From contig CAKJZE010000017.1 in NCBI GenBank assembly GCA_918285425.1, positions 1 to 34,420 on the forward strand: a stretch of 34,420 bases of DNA, written 5' to 3'. Position 1 is the first letter of the stretch. Every line of letters starts with the position of its first letter. The stretch comes from Clostridiales bacterium. Its GTDB lineage: Bacteria > Bacillota > Clostridia > Christensenellales > UBA1242. The notes beneath the pieces are model-generated. The model saw nothing but the letters and a program-made list of their open reading frames with translations, was not told the DNA's origin and made no database searches. Position numbers and translations under genes: made by a program. Shown one piece after another: positions 8,777-22,366 of the stretch.

Positions 8777-10612
8777 TTATTCCAACACAGCCTTAATTCG
8801 GCGCACACCTGCACTTGAAGCTTCTTCCTTTTTAATAATGAAATGTCCAAGCACACCCGTATGCTCAACATGTGGTCCCGTGCAAATTTCTTTTGACGCA
8901 TTACCGATTGTATAAACTGAAACAATATCAGGGTATTTTTCAATAAACTGATGTTCTGCACCAGCTTTTACTGCATCTTCTTTCTTCATCTCTTCCCTTG
9001 TGACAGTTATGTCATCTTTGATCCAACCATTGACAAAATCTTCTGCCTGTTTAATTTCATCTTCAGAAAGTTTATGATCACAAGCAAAGTCAAAGCGAAG
9101 TCGCTCTGCTGTGATGTTGCTTCCCATCTGATGGCTTGTTTCCCCAACAACTCTTTTAAGTGCAGCATTTAAAAGGTGAGTTGCAGTGTGATATTTTGTT
9201 TCCATCTCACCACTGCCAGCAAGTCCACTTTTTGCAACTTGACTGTTTGCCCTTGCAAGCTCTTGGTGAGCTTTAAATGCTTCTTCATAGCCAGCCATAT
9301 CAACTTTAAGATCTTTTTCCGCAGCCATTTCAACAGTCATTTCAATTGGAAATCCATACGTCTCATAAAGCCTGAAAGCAGCTTTTCCGCTGATGACTTT
9401 ATCAGCCTCTGTTGGAACATAGTTTGGATTGTTTTTTGTCATAAACTCAACTTTCTTTTGCATATTTATTATAGTTTTATCAAACTCTTTCTCTCCTGTT
9501 TCAAGAGTCTTATTAAACTTGTCAATTTCTGCCTTTATGCTTGAAAGTATGTATTCTTTTTTCTCCACAAGAAGTGGGTAAGCCTCATTATAAACTTCAT
9601 CAATATAAATTCTTGCGACTTCAATCAAGCCCTCTGTGTTAAGTCCAATTTTCTTTGCATGACGAATTGCACGACGAAGAAGTCTTCTTAAAATATAACC
9701 AGCCCCAACATTGCTTGGAAGTATGCCATTTTTATCTCCAATAAGCATAACACCTGTGCGCATATGGTCAGAAATGATACGCATTGACTTTGTCTGGTCA
9801 GCATTTGCATCATACACGATACCGGTATTTTTTTCAATAGAAGATATAACACCAGCAAACAGATCAGTTTTATAGCAGTCTGTAAGTCCATTTAAAAACA
9901 TCAAAAGCCTTTCAAGACCAAAACCGGTGTCTACATTTTTGTTTTTAAGTGGAACATACCCATTTTCAGTTTTTTCGTACTGCATATAAACATCGTTTCC
10001 AATTTCAACATATCTTCCGCAACCACAAGCCGGGCCACAATCCTTGCCACATGCATTGTCGTGGCGTGGATAAAACCACTCATTATCAGGGCCACATGGG
10101 GTTCCAACTGTACCCTCAAGCTCCCACCAGTTATCTTCTTTTGGAAGATAGAAAATTCTGTCTTTTGTTATGCCAAGATTTTGAAGATATGATGCAGTTT
10201 CCTCATCACGAGGGGCACTTTCATTGCCCTCAAAAACAGTAGCACAAATTTTATTTCCATCAAAACCAAGAACTTTTGTTAAAAACTCAAAAGTCCAAGC
10301 AGTTTTTTCTTTTTTGAAATAGTCGCCTAAACTCCAGTTGCCCATCATCTCGAAAAATGTAAGATGTGAAATATCGCCAATGCTTTCAATATCATTTGTC
10401 CTGACACATCCTTGAACATTACAAAGTCTTGTCTTGCCGCTTGGATGTTTTGCACCAAGAAGATAAGGCATAAGTGGTTGCATACCTGCAACATTGAACA
10501 TAACACCAGTTGTTCCATCACCAACAAGAGATGCAGCACCAATGTCAACATGTCCCCTGTCTTTATAAAAATTTAGCCATTTATCACGTAATTCTTTACT
10601 TGTTATTTTCAT
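8777..10612 (-). CDS. alaS: Alanyl-tRNA synthetase, short form (611 aa)
   Basis: NVAGMQPLMPYLLG...TRLCNVQGCVRTNDIESIGDISHLTFFEMMGNWSLGDYF...; editing-domain motif TATHLLNAAL and CTGPHVEHTG; ends directly after the editing core. Confidence 0.95.
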   Translation of the reverse strand: MKITSKELRDKWLNFYKDRGHVDIGAASLVGDGTTGVMFNVAGMQPLMPYLLGAKHPSGKTRLCNVQGCVRTNDIESIGDISHLTFFEMMGNWSLGDYFKKEKTAWTFEFLTKVLGFDGNKICATVFEGNESAPRDEETASYLQNLGITKDRIFYLPKEDNWWELEGTVGTPCGPDNEWFYPRHDNACGKDCGPACGCGRYVEIGNDVYMQYEKTENGYVPLKNKNVDTGFGLERLLMFLNGLTDCYKTDLFAGVISSIEKNTGIVYDANADQTKSMRIISDHMRTGVMLIGDKNGILPSNVGAGYILRRLLRRAIRHAKKIGLNTEGLIEVARIYIDEVYNEAYPLLVEKKEYILSSIKAEIDKFNKTLETGEKEFDKTIINMQKKVEFMTKNNPNYVPTEADKVISGKAAFRLYETYGFPIEMTVEMAAEKDLKVDMAGYEEAFKAHQELARANSQVAKSGLAGSGEMETKYHTATHLLNAALKRVVGETSHQMGSNITAERLRFDFACDHKLSEDEIKQAEDFVNGWIKDDITVTREEMKKEDAVKAGAEHQFIEKYPDIVSVYTIGNASKEICTGPHVEHTGVLGHFIIKKEEASSAGVRRIKAVLE

Positions 10613-12260: not shown

Positions 12261-13403
12261 ATGAAATTTAAAATGAATAACACTTTAGATGAAAATATAA
12301 ATCAATATTGTATTAAATACAAAATTGTGCCACCTCAAAAATTTGTAAAAGGAATAATAAATCCTGGAGTAAAAACTCCTCAAAGCATAACAGATAAAGT
12401 TGTTCGCAAAATAGAAATCGAGGAGGCAAAAGATTTTAAACTACACAACATTTCTGATATAGTACGTGGAACAATAATAATTGAAGATTATTCAATTGTT
12501 CCTAGTTTAATATGGAAGTTGAAAGAAAATATACCAAATCTTTATGGTTACATATCCTCATGGACAAACGGCTATAAGGGAATTCATTTAAATTTTTCCA
12601 TTGATGAAACTAATGCCGAAATACAAATACATACACCAGAATCATTTGCTGTGAATAAAGCAACTTCTGAAGTTTATGCAAAATGGAGAAATTACAATCC
12701 AAGAAGAGAAATAGAAAATTTATTAGAACTCAAAGCTGTTGACAGTCCAATGTTTAAGGAAAAGAGAAATCAGTTCTTTGAATTGAGATCAGAATACAAT
12801 AAAGAAAACCAAGATGCAAGATTTCTATATGATAAATTATGGAGAACTGTAAACTTAAATAAACATGAAAATCTAATAAATGCTGTTTTATTTAAAATTA
12901 ACAAAATAAAATCACCTGACACAGACATCAATAAAAAACTTCACGAATCTCTATATGCAAATTTAATTGATATCAATACAGGATTAGTTGATAAAAATGA
13001 GACATATAAAAATGCAATTAATATAAGTTTAAATAATAAAGATAACCAGAACGTTTTTGTTAAAAAATTAACAAATATTTATGAAAACACTTTATCTAAT
13101 TTAAATACACAATACATACAAAATGAAACAGATGAAAACATCATAAAAACTATAAACCAGTGGGAAACATTTTTAAATGAAGAATTAAACAAATTAAAAA
13201 TGAATCTGAATTGTCAACAAGATTACTGCTCGTTTATATATTTGAAGAAATTTAACTTTATTTCAAATGCACTTAATTTGCAAAACGGACAATATATACT
13301 TACAATTGATCAAAAATCATTAAAGAATAATGTAATGGAGTGTGCAAAAGAGATACAAAAAAGACAAAATATTCTTACAAATTCTATTGAAAAAGTTAAT
13401 TAA
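12261..13403 (+). CDS. Divergent RelA/SpoT-type nucleotidyltransferase domain protein, toxSAS-like candidate (380 aa)
   Basis: VKTPQSITDKVVRK (K-x3-S-x3-K spacing as in RSH synthetases), LHNISDIVRGTIIIED, WTNGYKGIHLNF (GYxSxH-like), AEIQIHTPES (E-[IV]-Q-[IL]-x-T). Confidence 0.75.
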   Translation: MKFKMNNTLDENINQYCIKYKIVPPQKFVKGIINPGVKTPQSITDKVVRKIEIEEAKDFKLHNISDIVRGTIIIEDYSIVPSLIWKLKENIPNLYGYISSWTNGYKGIHLNFSIDETNAEIQIHTPESFAVNKATSEVYAKWRNYNPRREIENLLELKAVDSPMFKEKRNQFFELRSEYNKENQDARFLYDKLWRTVNLNKHENLINAVLFKINKIKSPDTDINKKLHESLYANLIDINTGLVDKNETYKNAINISLNNKDNQNVFVKKLTNIYENTLSNLNTQYIQNETDENIIKTINQWETFLNEELNKLKMNLNCQQDYCSFIYLKKFNFISNALNLQNGQYILTIDQKSLKNNVMECAKEIQKRQNILTNSIEKVN

Positions 13404-13621
13404 ATATTCAATATTTTGTCTATTAGTTGTTTCAATGCTTGTATATCTGTTTTATAACTTGCTTCTATTTCAGAAATTTCAATTCCTATGTTATCTTGTA
13501 AAAAATTAAGACTGAATGGTAAAACTTTCCATTTGTGATTAACAGAATCAAAAACAAAATCTAAAGAACATACATCATCATATGCATAAATATTATTATT
13601 AATATCAACATAAAATTTCAT
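13400..13621 (-). CDS. Small hypothetical protein (73 aa) between the RSH-like and HD genes, opposite strand
   Basis: Complete ORF filling the gap; protein-like composition but no clear SD. Confidence 0.5.
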   Translation of the reverse strand: MKFYVDINNNIYAYDDVCSLDFVFDSVNHKWKVLPFSLNFLQDNIGIEISEIEASYKTDIQALKQLIDKILNI

Positions 13622-13656
13622 AATTAAATGATATTATAATTGGAGGAATATGTCAA

Positions 13657-14193
13657 ATGAATAATTATTGGAATGGCGATTTATTTTATAAAACTATAGA
13701 ATTCGCACAAAAAAAACATGAAGGCCAAAAAATAATGCTTTCACAAATGCCTTATATTGGCCATGTATTTGAAGTATTTGGTGAATGCGTAAGCGGATGT
13801 TTAGAAGATAATGCTAATATAAATTGGGATTATCTTATGCAGGTTGCATTATTACATGATACGCTTGAGGATACAAATTGCACATATAATGAATTATGTA
13901 TTACATTCAACAAGGAAATAGCAGATGGCGTTTCTGCGCTCACAAAAAATACAGATTTGCCTTACAATTTAAGAATACAAGATTCTTTAAGAAGGATAAA
14001 ATTGTGTAAACCAGAAATTGCTTTGATTAAATTAGCTGATAGAATTGTTAATTTGCAAGAAAAACCTATACAATGGGACAATAACAAACTTATAAATTAT
14101 AAACAAGATGCAGAATTAATATTGGAAGAGATAGGATATGTATCTAAAACGTTGTCTTATAGGTTACAACAAAAAATAGAAAATTACTTATGA
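13657..14193 (+). CDS. Single-domain HD hydrolase, small alarmone hydrolase-like (178 aa)
   Basis: HEGQ...MPYIGH...LLHDTLEDT...IADGVSALTKN...LIKLADRIVNL matches the RSH/MESH1 hydrolase motif order; SD TTGGAGG upstream. Confidence 0.85.
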   Translation: MNNYWNGDLFYKTIEFAQKKHEGQKIMLSQMPYIGHVFEVFGECVSGCLEDNANINWDYLMQVALLHDTLEDTNCTYNELCITFNKEIADGVSALTKNTDLPYNLRIQDSLRRIKLCKPEIALIKLADRIVNLQEKPIQWDNNKLINYKQDAELILEEIGYVSKTLSYRLQQKIENYL

Positions 14194-14243: not shown

Positions 14244-14662
14244 AAATTTTTCACGCAAAATTTACTTTTGTAAATAAGCATGTGAGATTTTGATAAATTG
14301 TTTTAATTCAAGAAATTTAGGGCAAAATTTAAATATAATTGATACTATAAAATAATAACTTTTTTACAGGTCAGAGTTTACATATATGACTATGTAAAAT
14401 TTATATCTTCAAACATTAATTTAGGGCGAAATTTATTTTGATAACAAGGCAACAAAAAATCGCGACCCATTCGACTTCGTGCTTTGCACTCCGCTCAGGG
14501 CAGGCTCCACAAGCACTATATTCACATAACGCGATTTCAGGGCGGAGTTTGCGTATATAAAAAAGAAACAAAAAAGTTCCACGCTTGAGTTTACTTTCGT
14601 AAATGAATGTGTGGAACTTTTGTAGTTTCTGCATTTAGATGCGTGAAATCCGCCCTGAAATT
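14244..14662. repeat. Cluster of degenerate hairpin/inverted-repeat elements
   Basis: Two related hairpins (14244-14290; 14573-14621) sharing CACGC...TTTACTTT(T/C)GTAAAT...GTG; five copies of a YAGGGCRRA-type motif at 14314, 14361, 14418, 14531 (+) and 14641-14662 (inverted). Confidence 0.7.
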
Positions 14663-14951
14663 AGCTGTGCATCCACTTAACCAAAGGCTCCCTTATTGCA
14701 TAAAGCACAGCCAAAAGAATTAAAACAGTAACCGCACCAATAACACCATTAACAAGCACCTTTTGCAACTTTGCCCTTTCCTCTTTTCCTTCAGCTTTTG
14801 CGAATTTAACACCAACTATAACGCCATAAAGAATACCAAGTGTCAAAACAACCCCGATAGCATAAGGTCCAATAAGCGTGATGGCTTTATAAAGTGGATC
14901 AACTGCATTTTCTCCAGTGCCAAGCAGATTAAAGAAGTTTGTAAATCCCAT
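14661..14951 (-). CDS. Small two-TM protein, TrbC/VirB2 pilin-like (96 aa)
   Basis: N-terminal segment plus two TM helices with a basic loop (KFAKAEGKEERAKLQK); divergent from a VirD4-like gene. Confidence 0.55.
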   Translation of the reverse strand: MGFTNFFNLLGTGENAVDPLYKAITLIGPYAIGVVLTLGILYGVIVGVKFAKAEGKEERAKLQKVLVNGVIGAVTVLILLAVLYAIREPLVKWMHS

Positions 14952-15051
14952 ATTTTGTTACCTCTTTCATATTTGTTAACTTTATCTTATCATTTTTAAG
15001 CACGTATGGCAACTAAAATTTAAAAAAAGATGAAAACCATGCCAATTTTAT

Positions 15052-15080
15052 TTGATTTATATTTTTATTATGTGTATAAT
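15052..15080 (+). promoter_or_regulatory. Putative promoter of the VirD4-like gene (TTGATT-17-TATAAT)
   Basis: ttgatt 15052-15057, 17-nt spacer, tataat 15075-15080. Confidence 0.65.
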
Positions 15081-15110
15081 ATCCTTAATCTTATTGAAGG
15101 GGTGCGATCT

Positions 15111-17081
15111 ATGGCTGAAAAAAAAGGAAGTAAATTTTTAATCAGATTGTTTGGTATAGGGCTGACATTTGTTATTGGTCTTTTTGCGGCGTCAGCTGTA
15201 ATTAATTACTTGACAACAAAAGAATTTGATCTTATTGCAACTGTTAAAGGCATTACAGATGGTAAGGCACTTTTTGCCGCTGGTGTTATGGCAATGGTTG
15301 TTTTGCTTATGATGCTTATTAGCGGTGACAAATCCGGGCCAAAGCTTAAAGGTAAAGACAAAATGGAAAATCAACGCTTTCTTAAAGATGATGAACTTGA
15401 CAAAACCTTTAAACATTGCCTATACAGTGAACTTTCATCTTTCAGCCACACAGGTGTTCCCTTCCGTGTTGTAAAAAAAGGAAACAACAACTTAAAAATA
15501 CATTTCACACCAGACTGCCACACACTTATCGTCGGAGCTACTGGTACTGGTAAAACTGTTTCCTTCATTGAACCTGCACTCCAAATCATTCCTTGCTTAA
15601 AGAATAAGCCATCATTCTTTATCACTGACACAAAAGGTGAGCTTTATGCTCATCACAGCCAAAACCTTGTAAAGCAAGGCTATAAACTGGTGCTTCTTGA
15701 TCTTGCTGAACCATACAATTCTGTTCAGTGGAATCCACTTGAAAATATTTACACACAATGGCAAAAACAGCTTCATTTGGAAGAAGAAATTTTAAGACAT
15801 ACAAATGATCCAGTTAAAAACTATAATTTCATCAAAGTCGGTGAAATATATGATGATGAATGGTATGAATTTGAAGGGAAAGCTTTTGCTTCACTTAAAG
15901 ATGCACTCTTGGAAGTCGAAGTTGAAAAATCTAAAATTCGTGACGATTGCTTTGAAAACTTAAATGATATTGCAGCCGCAATTTGTACAATTGAAAACAA
16001 AAGTGAACCGTCTTGGGAACAAGGCGCAAGGGATTATTTCTTGGCAGTTTTAATTGCCATGCTTGAAGACAGCGAAAACGAGGCTTTAGGTATGACAAAA
16101 GAGAGATATAATTTCTTCAACGCCTATAAAATTGCCATGAATAAAGAAGAGGACTTTGAGGTTGTCAAACAATACTTTAACGGCAGAAATCCTCTTTCTA
16201 AAACCCGTCAACTTGCAGCCAACATCACACAAACTAATGCAAAAGTTACTCGTGATGGTTTCATGTCAACTTTAAACACAAAACTCTCTATGTTTTCGGA
16301 CAATGGTATCAGCTTCTTAACCTCAAGAAATGATATTGACTTTTATAACATGGACGAACAACCAACTGCATTCTTTGTTAAAATTCCTGATGAAAGAGCA
16401 ACAAGATATACACTTGCTTCTGTATGTATTTCACAAGCTTATAAGCTGTTTGTTGCAAAAGCTCGCGCAAATGAAAGAACCAACAGCGATAAAATGGCAC
16501 ACCTTAAACGCCCTGTTTTGTATTTAATGGACGAGTTTGCAAACCTTCCAAAAGTTTCTGAACTTGAAAAAATCATAACAGTCGCACGTTCAAGATGGAT
16601 CTTCCTGAACATGGTTATTCAGTCTTACAGCCAGCTTGACAATGTCTATGGCAAAGAGGTTTCTGAAATCGTGCGTGGTAACTGTCGTGCAACAATCTTC
16701 CTTGGAACCCCTGACCTTGCAACAAGAGAAGCCTTCTCTAAAGAGCTTGGAAGTTACACAATTGAGCAATCATCAAAAACCACTCCTGATAAAAAAGACA
16801 AAAAAGATGCTGGAGGACCTACAACAAGCACATCTTTGACCACTGTACCTCTTGTCTATCCTTCTGACCTTGACAAAATACCACTTGGTAACAACTATAC
16901 TAAAATATTTGGAAATTATCCTGTAAAATCAGTCATAACACCTTACTTCAAGTGCACAGATATCTATAAGATTGGTAAATACGAGATGCCATTTATTCCT
17001 GGAAGAAGAATGAATGAACAAGAAGTTTTCTATGATATAAGAAAAAGAAACGAACTTATCTTATCTGCATACGATGAATAA
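15111..17081 (+). CDS. VirD4/TraG-family type IV secretion coupling ATPase
   Basis: Walker A VGATGTGKT, FITDTKGELYAHHSQNLVKQGYKLVLLDL, Walker B LYLMDEFANLP, IQSYSQLDNVYG. Start moved from 15030 to 15111 (MAEKKGSK, SD GAAGGGG) because the predicted promoter lies between. Confidence 0.9.
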   Translation: MAEKKGSKFLIRLFGIGLTFVIGLFAASAVINYLTTKEFDLIATVKGITDGKALFAAGVMAMVVLLMMLISGDKSGPKLKGKDKMENQRFLKDDELDKTFKHCLYSELSSFSHTGVPFRVVKKGNNNLKIHFTPDCHTLIVGATGTGKTVSFIEPALQIIPCLKNKPSFFITDTKGELYAHHSQNLVKQGYKLVLLDLAEPYNSVQWNPLENIYTQWQKQLHLEEEILRHTNDPVKNYNFIKVGEIYDDEWYEFEGKAFASLKDALLEVEVEKSKIRDDCFENLNDIAAAICTIENKSEPSWEQGARDYFLAVLIAMLEDSENEALGMTKERYNFFNAYKIAMNKEEDFEVVKQYFNGRNPLSKTRQLAANITQTNAKVTRDGFMSTLNTKLSMFSDNGISFLTSRNDIDFYNMDEQPTAFFVKIPDERATRYTLASVCISQAYKLFVAKARANERTNSDKMAHLKRPVLYLMDEFANLPKVSELEKIITVARSRWIFLNMVIQSYSQLDNVYGKEVSEIVRGNCRATIFLGTPDLATREAFSKELGSYTIEQSSKTTPDKKDKKDAGGPTTSTSLTTVPLVYPSDLDKIPLGNNYTKIFGNYPVKSVITPYFKCTDIYKIGKYEMPFIPGRRMNEQEVFYDIRKRNELILSAYDE

Positions 17082-21056: not shown

Positions 21057-21716
21057 TCATTTTCCTCTTATTCTTTCATTATCATATCTATAAAACCAAT
21101 CAAACAGTTTTTCTTTAAGTTCTTTCATTGTTTTTATTTCTTCATTCCAAATTGTTTCGGTTTTCATTCTACTATGAAAGCTCTCTATAACAGCGTTGTC
21201 TAGTGGAGTTCCTTTTCTGCTCATTGAAATTTGATAGCCATAATTCCTACATGCGGTTTGGTATTCATAAGATGTATATTGAAACCCTTGGTCGCTATGT
21301 ATTATCAAATTTGTTGCATCTATTCTATAAAGTTTTGCCCACTTTAAAGTATCTGTTACAAGAGAAACAGGGTTTGTATTACGATATTGCATCGACACAA
21401 TACTTCTATCATACAAATCTAAAATTGTAGAAATATATAAGACTTGACCTTCAATATGAAATTCTGTTATATCTGTAACCCAAACTTTATTTGGTTCACT
21501 TACATTAAAATTTCTTTTTAACAAATTTGGTTTTACGTTTTCTTCAAACTTTCTCTTACTATAATTGTATCTTGTTTTCTTTGAATAATTCGGCATTATG
21601 TGGTATTTTTGCATTATTCTTAATATCTTCTTATGATTCATAACTAAGCCATATTTAAGTAATAATGCTTTTTGTATTCTTCTATAACCATATGTTTTAT
21701 GCGATTTATTAAACAC
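21057..21716 (-). CDS. IS3-family transposase OrfB (DDE integrase core); real frame extends to about 21897 through a -1 frameshift
   Basis: HKTYGYRRIQKAL..., VWVTDITEFH, IHSDQGFQYTS, MSRKGTPLDNAVIESFHSRMKTE; early stop at ERIRGK*. Confidence 0.92.
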   Translation of the reverse strand: MFNKSHKTYGYRRIQKALLLKYGLVMNHKKILRIMQKYHIMPNYSKKTRYNYSKRKFEENVKPNLLKRNFNVSEPNKVWVTDITEFHIEGQVLYISTILDLYDRSIVSMQYRNTNPVSLVTDTLKWAKLYRIDATNLIIHSDQGFQYTSYEYQTACRNYGYQISMSRKGTPLDNAVIESFHSRMKTETIWNEEIKTMKELKEKLFDWFYRYDNERIRGK

Positions 21717-21850
21717 TTCAAATATAAGTTGGGCATCAACATCATCTTTATTTAATGTGTTACGATTTCTGTAATACGTTCTTAAAGATATATCTAAAGT
21801 GTTACATAATGTTTTTAATGGATATTCTTTGCGATATACATTTATAAAAA

Positions 21851-22366
21851 TTACTTTATCTCTTGTTGAAGCTTCAAGAATTCTTCCATTTTTTTTAGTA
21901 TCTCAACCTGTGTTTTATAGTCAATTTCCGAGTTTAGTTTTCTCCCGCTTCTTCCTTTCTTTGATGTATTGTAAATGTTTTTTCCTTCTTGTTCCATTCT
22001 TAACCAAGTTTTAATTGTATGAAATGATATACCATACTCTTTGGCAAGTATTTTTACTCCTGCATAACCAGATTTATATTTATCCATTATCTCTCTCTTA
22101 AACTCTGGCGTGTATTTGTTATTTTTTCGAGTAGGGACATATTTCAATTTTTTTGAATCATTGGACTTTGACTCAACTTTAGTTCTATTTGTCTTTTTCC
22201 TAGAAAGGTTATATTCGTGATTATTTCTATCTGCATTAATCCAATTCCAAAGGGTTTGTTTGGCAATTCCTTGTGACTTAGCAAACTCAGTACAACTCAT
22301 ATTGCTTGAACGAAACTTTTTTAACATTTCTTCTTTGTATTCTTCTGTAAAACCTCTATAATACAC
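21851..22366 (-). CDS. IS3-family transposase OrfA (double HTH)
   Basis: FTEEYKEEMLKKFRSSNMSCTEFAKSQGIAKQTLWNW and YTPEFKREIMDKYKSGYAGVKILAKEYGISFHTIKTWL; A8 slippery run at 21889-21896 near its end. Confidence 0.9.
   Translation of the reverse strand: MYYRGFTEEYKEEMLKKFRSSNMSCTEFAKSQGIAKQTLWNWINADRNNHEYNLSRKKTNRTKVESKSNDSKKLKYVPTRKNNKYTPEFKREIMDKYKSGYAGVKILAKEYGISFHTIKTWLRMEQEGKNIYNTSKKGRSGRKLNSEIDYKTQVEILKKMEEFLKLQQEIK

Follow-up and report, generated by a model that had tools for sequence, protein, structure and literature searches.

Several described toxSAS systems provide a background for the locus considered here. In a Cellulomonas marina operon, faRel is flanked by aTfaRel, which encodes a small alarmone hydrolase (SAH), and by aT2faRel (PMC11782079). 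The apk2-iapK-aph1 system consists of a (p)ppApp synthetase and two immunity proteins, IapK and Aph1, one of them binding and one hydrolyzing; the syn2 motif of the Apk2 (p)ppApp toxins reads RYT, whereas that of the RSHs reads AVR (PMC12226406). A phage SAH, PaSpo, neutralizes toxSAS and was co-expressed to permit the production of CapRel (PMC9712102). Finally, the residues of FaRel2 that bind the donor ATP are R64, K66, S70, K74, R77, D90 and R95 (PMC11782079).

The window, by which we mean the whole stretch of 34,420 nucleotides that was analyzed, corresponds to contig C17 in a genome assembly (G000) of 886 kb and 89% completeness. It contains three adjacent genes that we read, with a probability of roughly 0.55, as a chromosomal three-gene toxSAS toxin-antitoxin module made up of a (p)ppApp-making toxin, an SAH antitoxin and a binding antitoxin. 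These roles are assigned by analogy with faRel (PMC11782079) and apk2 (PMC12226406), such that the synthetase would be the toxin, the SAH would remove its product and the small protein would be the binder. The features of the locus are the following.

12261-13403, plus strand: synthetase, candidate toxin, 380 aa, with a toxSYNTH domain at about residues 20-150 followed by a C-terminal extension of about 200 aa
12366-12407, plus strand: syn1, G-x-K-x3-S-x3-K-x2-R, residues 36-49, placed by the family alignment and by FaRel2 R64/K66/S70/K74/R77 (PMC11782079)
12456-12476, plus strand: syn2, DIVRGTI, residues 66-72; D66 is a Mg ligand by homology, and the Arg is at D+3, not D+5
12570-12635, plus strand: syn3, GYKGIH (G104-H109), and syn4, EIQIHT (E120-T125), placed by sequence and family alignment
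13400-13621, minus strand: third component, candidate binding antitoxin, 73 aa, placed by profile homology to the small proteins of relatives
13628-13656, minus strand: promoter-like site, TTGACA-17-TATCAT, 11/12 matches, directly upstream of the 73-aa gene
13657-14193, plus strand: SAH, candidate enzymatic antitoxin, 178 aa, with an HD domain

A first-pass annotation had placed ORFs of 380 and 178 aa at these positions, and both are there, together with every motif that it quoted: K38-x3-S42-x3-K46, DIVRGTI, GYKGIH and EIQIHT in the longer protein and PYIGH, LLHDTLED and KLADR in the shorter one. All three ORFs are open. The synthetase and 73-aa genes are convergent and overlap by 4 bases, while the 73-aa and HD genes are divergent, with start codons 35 bases apart. 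The promoter-like site of the 73-aa gene is one of 14 in the 34-kb window that score at least 11/12, and the count of such sites across the whole region is not higher than in shuffles. An Rfam search of the region returned no RNA family.

Several other features of the window were recorded. Directly downstream, at 14661-17081, a T4SS pilin-like gene and a gene for a VirD4/TraG-type coupling protein lie on opposite strands. A sequence of about 130 bases that has inverted-repeat arms is repeated at 14420-14663 and at 2156-2292, and it also adjoins dnaB in a related genome, G006 (L192:4456-4592). The alanyl-tRNA synthetase-like ORF at 8777-10612 is only 611 aa long, the usual C-terminal part seemingly missing, and a pair of ORFs at 21057-22366 (integrase-like and HTH-like) resembles an IS3-type transposase.

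As a single query the 380-aa protein yielded no RSH synthetase match in Pfam, NCBIfam, PADLOC, PHROGs or the PDB. When seven synthetase domains, from the window protein and relatives of the same genus and family, were combined in a profile, this matched YwaC (RelP) best in the PDB (5.7e-8), then another RelP-type protein at 1.5e-4, CapRel-SJ46 (5.8e-4), FaRel2 (1.1e-3) and Tas1 (0.024). Pfam RelA_SpoT was matched by two of the eight family members, the better of them at 2.5e-5. The RSH synthetase homology that had been proposed for this protein is therefore present by family profile, in both the PDB and Pfam, though not by the window sequence alone. A family profile from which the window sequences were left out recovers the 380-aa protein among the 527 ORFs of the window with an E value of 2.3e-56. 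Matches of the full-length profile to dynein were dismissed as coiled-coil noise. The AlphaFold model of the protein is poor (pLDDT 47.8); its best 15 PDB matches are all RSH synthetases, with FaRel2 first (E 0.0098) and with low TM-scores, which lends weak support to an RSH fold. The roughly 200 residues of C-terminal extension, described from the start as helical, are real, their helicity being predicted at low confidence.

The 380-aa protein starts with the synthetase domain, and no N-terminal MuF domain was matched in it. Searches of plasmids and viral contigs with the toxin as query gave no match, and the phage search returned three Helicobacter prophage records that are nearly identical. 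One match, without an annotated feature, falls in an ORF of 1816 codons of a Helicobacter ailurogastricus prophage (BK070046.1, L006:804-6251), the C-terminal part of which contains a RelA-like domain. Viral contigs L057/L059 and L063 encode a large phage protein that by eye resembles a portal or MuF protein and ends in a RelA-like domain; a gene for an HD hydrolase lies downstream of it.

The active site bears on the product. K38, S42, K46, R49, D66, Y105, E120 and Q122 are conserved across the synthetase family. The loss of the first Arg of the RxK motif, noted in the first-pass annotation, is confirmed by the alignment, in which G36 of the window protein takes the position of R64 of FaRel2. 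The full set of equivalents of the FaRel2 donor-ATP residues is G36, K38, S42, K46, R49, D66 and T71, and since G36 and T71 replace R64 and R95, both of the arginines that touch the donor base or ribose are missing. Instead, R69, three residues past D66, is invariant, and all eight family members have Arg at D+3 and S, T or A at D+5. Among the homologues aligned, no row combines Arg at D+3 (present in 26 rows) with Arg at D+5 (present in 22); a few of the rows repeat a single protein. The Arg stands at D+5 in long Rel-type proteins and at D+3 in the window family, in a group linked to dinB and in proteins of phage or MuF-like type. The members of a related RelA-like group with Arg at D+3 (L015, L045-L053), about 280-430 aa long and mostly from one genus of the host family, usually adjoin a dinB-like polymerase gene and have no adjacent HD gene.

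The D+3 pattern in syn2 points to adenosine chemistry in the window family. It does not prove it, because syn3 and syn4 of the window protein are unlike those of Apk2. The same three genes might alternatively encode a module whose toxin, like CapRel, FaRel2 and PhRel2, adds pyrophosphate to the tRNA CCA end and whose SAH reverses this modification. That CapRel-SJ46 and FaRel2 are the nearest solved toxic relatives by profile is in keeping with such an activity, as is the GxH of syn3, which the window protein shares with CapRel (GYSGIH) and FaRel2 (GFRGIH), and the SAH would fit as well, given that PaSpo neutralizes CapRel (PMC9712102). However, both donor-site arginines are kept in CapRel (RLK; DIGGCR), in FaRel2 (R64-x-K66; R95) and in YwaC (RVK; DIAGVR), whereas the window family has neither and carries its Arg at D+3, as do Apk2-type toxins. 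The R-x-T type of syn2 (PMC12226406) leads us to favor (p)ppApp chemistry and to regard modification of tRNA as rather unlikely.

The first-pass annotation had also taken the 178-aa HD protein for a hydrolase of this family, and it is indeed an SAH, with full-length matches in the PDB to 6yvc (1.9e-25) and 6z3n (2.9e-25), the E values for 6yvc and 6z3n/6z3o together spanning 1.9e-25 to 7.8e-25. It has a single HD domain, in which H36, H67-D68, E71-D72, D128 and N132 are all present; we take these residues to have the metal-binding and catalytic roles generally known for the SAH family. A leave-one-out profile recovers the gene among the 527 window ORFs with an E value of 2.6e-56. A second SAH of the same type (E 1.7e-69) is encoded elsewhere in the genome (contig C46, L140:4757-5284), with no toxin beside it in the 466 bases up to the contig end, and the genome also encodes a long Rel of about 700 aa. 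Close relatives of the SAH on plasmids stand alone, which counts against the toxSAS reading, and on this ground the presence of an SAH was rejected as proof of a toxin. Nor does an SAH by itself reveal the product of the toxin, since the phage enzyme also neutralizes the tRNA-modifying CapRel (PMC9712102).

The synthetase was found in 8 of 297 genomes of the host family (E 2.6e-39 or better). At a threshold of 1e-8, an order-level search of 396 genomes found it in the window's own genome only, and a phylum-level search of 399 genomes gave one remote match. The hosts are uncultured Clostridia with small genomes. Where both flanks are visible, an SAH of the same type adjoins the synthetase at six of seven loci (G000, G001, G232, G255, G266 and G287), a count from which G131 was left out because its locus is truncated by a contig end. 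The HD gene comes first in G255, G266 and G287 and last in G001, G232 and the window, and at the co-directional loci the module genes overlap or sit close together. G030 has a diverged synthetase of 286 aa that lacks the C-terminal extension, an adjacent SAH and the small protein (L003/L038), an exception that counts against the toxSAS reading. Since leave-one-out profiles recover both genes and the arrangement recurs in other genomes, as the first-pass annotation implied that it should, the pairing is beyond chance. In the toxin gene of G001 (L037:4607-5848, also L002 and L004) an in-frame TAA separates the synthetase part from the C-terminal extension, the sequence past this codon still matching the family.

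The genes that flank the module vary from locus to locus and the chromosomal sites differ. In the synthetase tree, G001, which belongs to the genus of the window, groups with G232 and not with the window protein (99/96), and in G006, which has a dnaB of 94% identity, the module is absent and a different gene stands next to dnaB. Together these observations fit horizontal transfer. No clean empty site emerged in G006, where a lipoprotein-like gene occupies the position. The distribution of the module also bears on the possibility that the synthetase and the hydrolase are a non-toxic signaling pair, whose role in stress physiology would be to tune (p)ppGpp or (p)ppApp. Enzymes of the SAS and SAH classes can act as regulators, and orphan SAHs exist, including the second one in this genome and the plasmid copies. 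Yet a presence as patchy as 8 in 297, differing chromosomal sites and a toxin tree that conflicts with genus are not what such a pair would lead one to expect, and a third domain is linked to the two enzymes in a genome that already has a housekeeping long Rel. We therefore consider a signaling pair improbable.

The third linked domain was recognized from relatives. G255, G266 and G287 encode an HD protein of about 262 aa, in which the SAH is followed by a C-terminal domain of about 70 residues, whereas G001 and G232 encode a separate protein of 80-95 aa upstream of the toxin. A profile of these two small proteins found the three fused SAH C-termini among 10,154 ORFs (1.2e-19, 1.2e-15 and 1.3e-8), and in the reverse direction a profile of the fused domain recovered the stand-alone proteins of G001 and G232. 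Orphan copies of the small protein occur in G310 and G272, and orphan SAHs occur as well. In the window, the 73-aa ORF ranks first of 527 ORFs in the leave-one-out small-protein search (8.3e-5) and second, after the HD gene, with the HD-fusion profile (1.5e-4). On score alone its membership of the family is weak (E 0.0065 and 0.024 among 10,154 ORFs), the next-best score in the window search, which counts against membership, is that of a lipoprotein-like ORF, and pairwise BLASTP against the G001 small protein gave no match. Membership gains weight from the location of the ORF, with the toxin gene on one side and the SAH gene on the other, and from the promoter-like site in front of it. On these sequence grounds we judge that the 73-aa gene belongs to the module as its third component and as a candidate binding antitoxin. 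The first-pass annotation had registered an interposed gene on the opposite strand; the gene does lie between the other two, but it is not incidental, its relatives being fused to the SAH elsewhere. A model of the small domain derived from two sequences has a pLDDT of 74 and gave non-significant best fold matches to beta-propeller blades; sequence and fold searches with the small domain matched no known family, no solved fold significantly and no solved antitoxin, pZFD and Tis1 included.

That the locus is a decayed or inactive remnant of a toxSAS module is very improbable: a related toxin gene (G001) does carry an in-frame TAA, orphan antitoxin-like genes are common and the small gene of the window is inverted, but the three window ORFs are open, the catalytic motifs of both enzymes are intact and the small gene has its own promoter-like site.

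If the three-gene (p)ppApp module is the correct reading, the free 380-aa synthetase would transfer pyrophosphate from ATP to the 3' hydroxyl of an adenine nucleotide, and the resulting formation of (p)ppApp and drain on ATP would stop growth. The HD protein would remove the product, and the 73-aa protein may act as a non-enzymatic antitoxin that binds the toxin. In the relatives with the SAH-small-domain fusion, both antidotes would possibly reside in one protein. The analysis shows homology, intact catalytic residues, recurrent linkage, the fusion and signs of transfer between genomes; that the synthetase is toxic and makes (p)ppApp, that the small protein binds it and that a trigger such as a phage infection sets it free are inferred. 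PADLOC models of anti-phage defense matched none of the three window proteins; of the original suggestion of a toxSAS/SAH or defense module, the first half is now the best reading, on the strength of homology, the SAH and co-occurrence, and for the second positive evidence was not found. More tentatively, the locus may represent a toxSAS subfamily that is new and has an antitoxin domain likewise new, the two antidotes being joined in relatives as a bifunctional antitoxin and the helical extension or the small domain serving to sense an invader.

The module can be compared with several known systems. It resembles faRel/aTfaRel/aT2faRel (PMC11782079), in which a toxSAS that makes (p)ppApp is combined with an SAH and a second, non-enzymatic antitoxin. 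The AT2faRel protein has Tis1-like and pZFD domains; for the small domain described here, modelled from two sequences, searches gave no significant match to a solved structure. The predicted helical extension of about 200 aa on the toxin is a difference, as is the joining of the small domain and the SAH into one protein in three relatives. With Apk2 (PMC12226406) the toxin shares the R-x-T of syn2 (DIVRGT in the window) and the module shares one binding and one hydrolyzing partner, which here are candidates. In contrast to Apk2, the toxin is encoded by a free-standing chromosomal gene outside any phage-head context, and since it has no MuF domain it is not an Apk2; the syn3 GxN and syn4 YH of Apk2 are replaced by GxH and by IH (window) or LS (most members). 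CapRel-SJ46 and FaRel2 (PMC9712102, PMC11782079) have the toxSYNTH fold in common with the window toxin, but they are controlled by pZFD antitoxins and keep the syn1 and D+5 arginines, for which the window has G36 and T71; lacking the donor arginines, the toxin is not of their type. RelP/YwaC, the best PDB match by profile, has the canonical motifs DIAGVR, GYRSLH and EIQIRT. The hydrolase matches the solved SAHs 6yvc and 6z3n/6z3o over its full length, and three of its relatives carry the extra C-terminal domain of about 70 aa. The synthetase family sequence, its C-terminal extension and the small domain, with its fusion to the SAH, were not found in the toxSAS literature compared, which did not include the founding paper (Jimmy 2020). 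The module would extend toxSAS to small-genome uncultured Clostridia, in a family mostly missed by standard models, and its new candidate antitoxin domain, free or fused to the SAH, offers a natural comparison for asking why two antidotes accompany an alarmone toxin. The arginine patterns of syn2, which exclude each other, provide a testable marker that may separate adenosine-type toxins from canonical alarmone synthetases and from the tRNA-modifying toxSAS.
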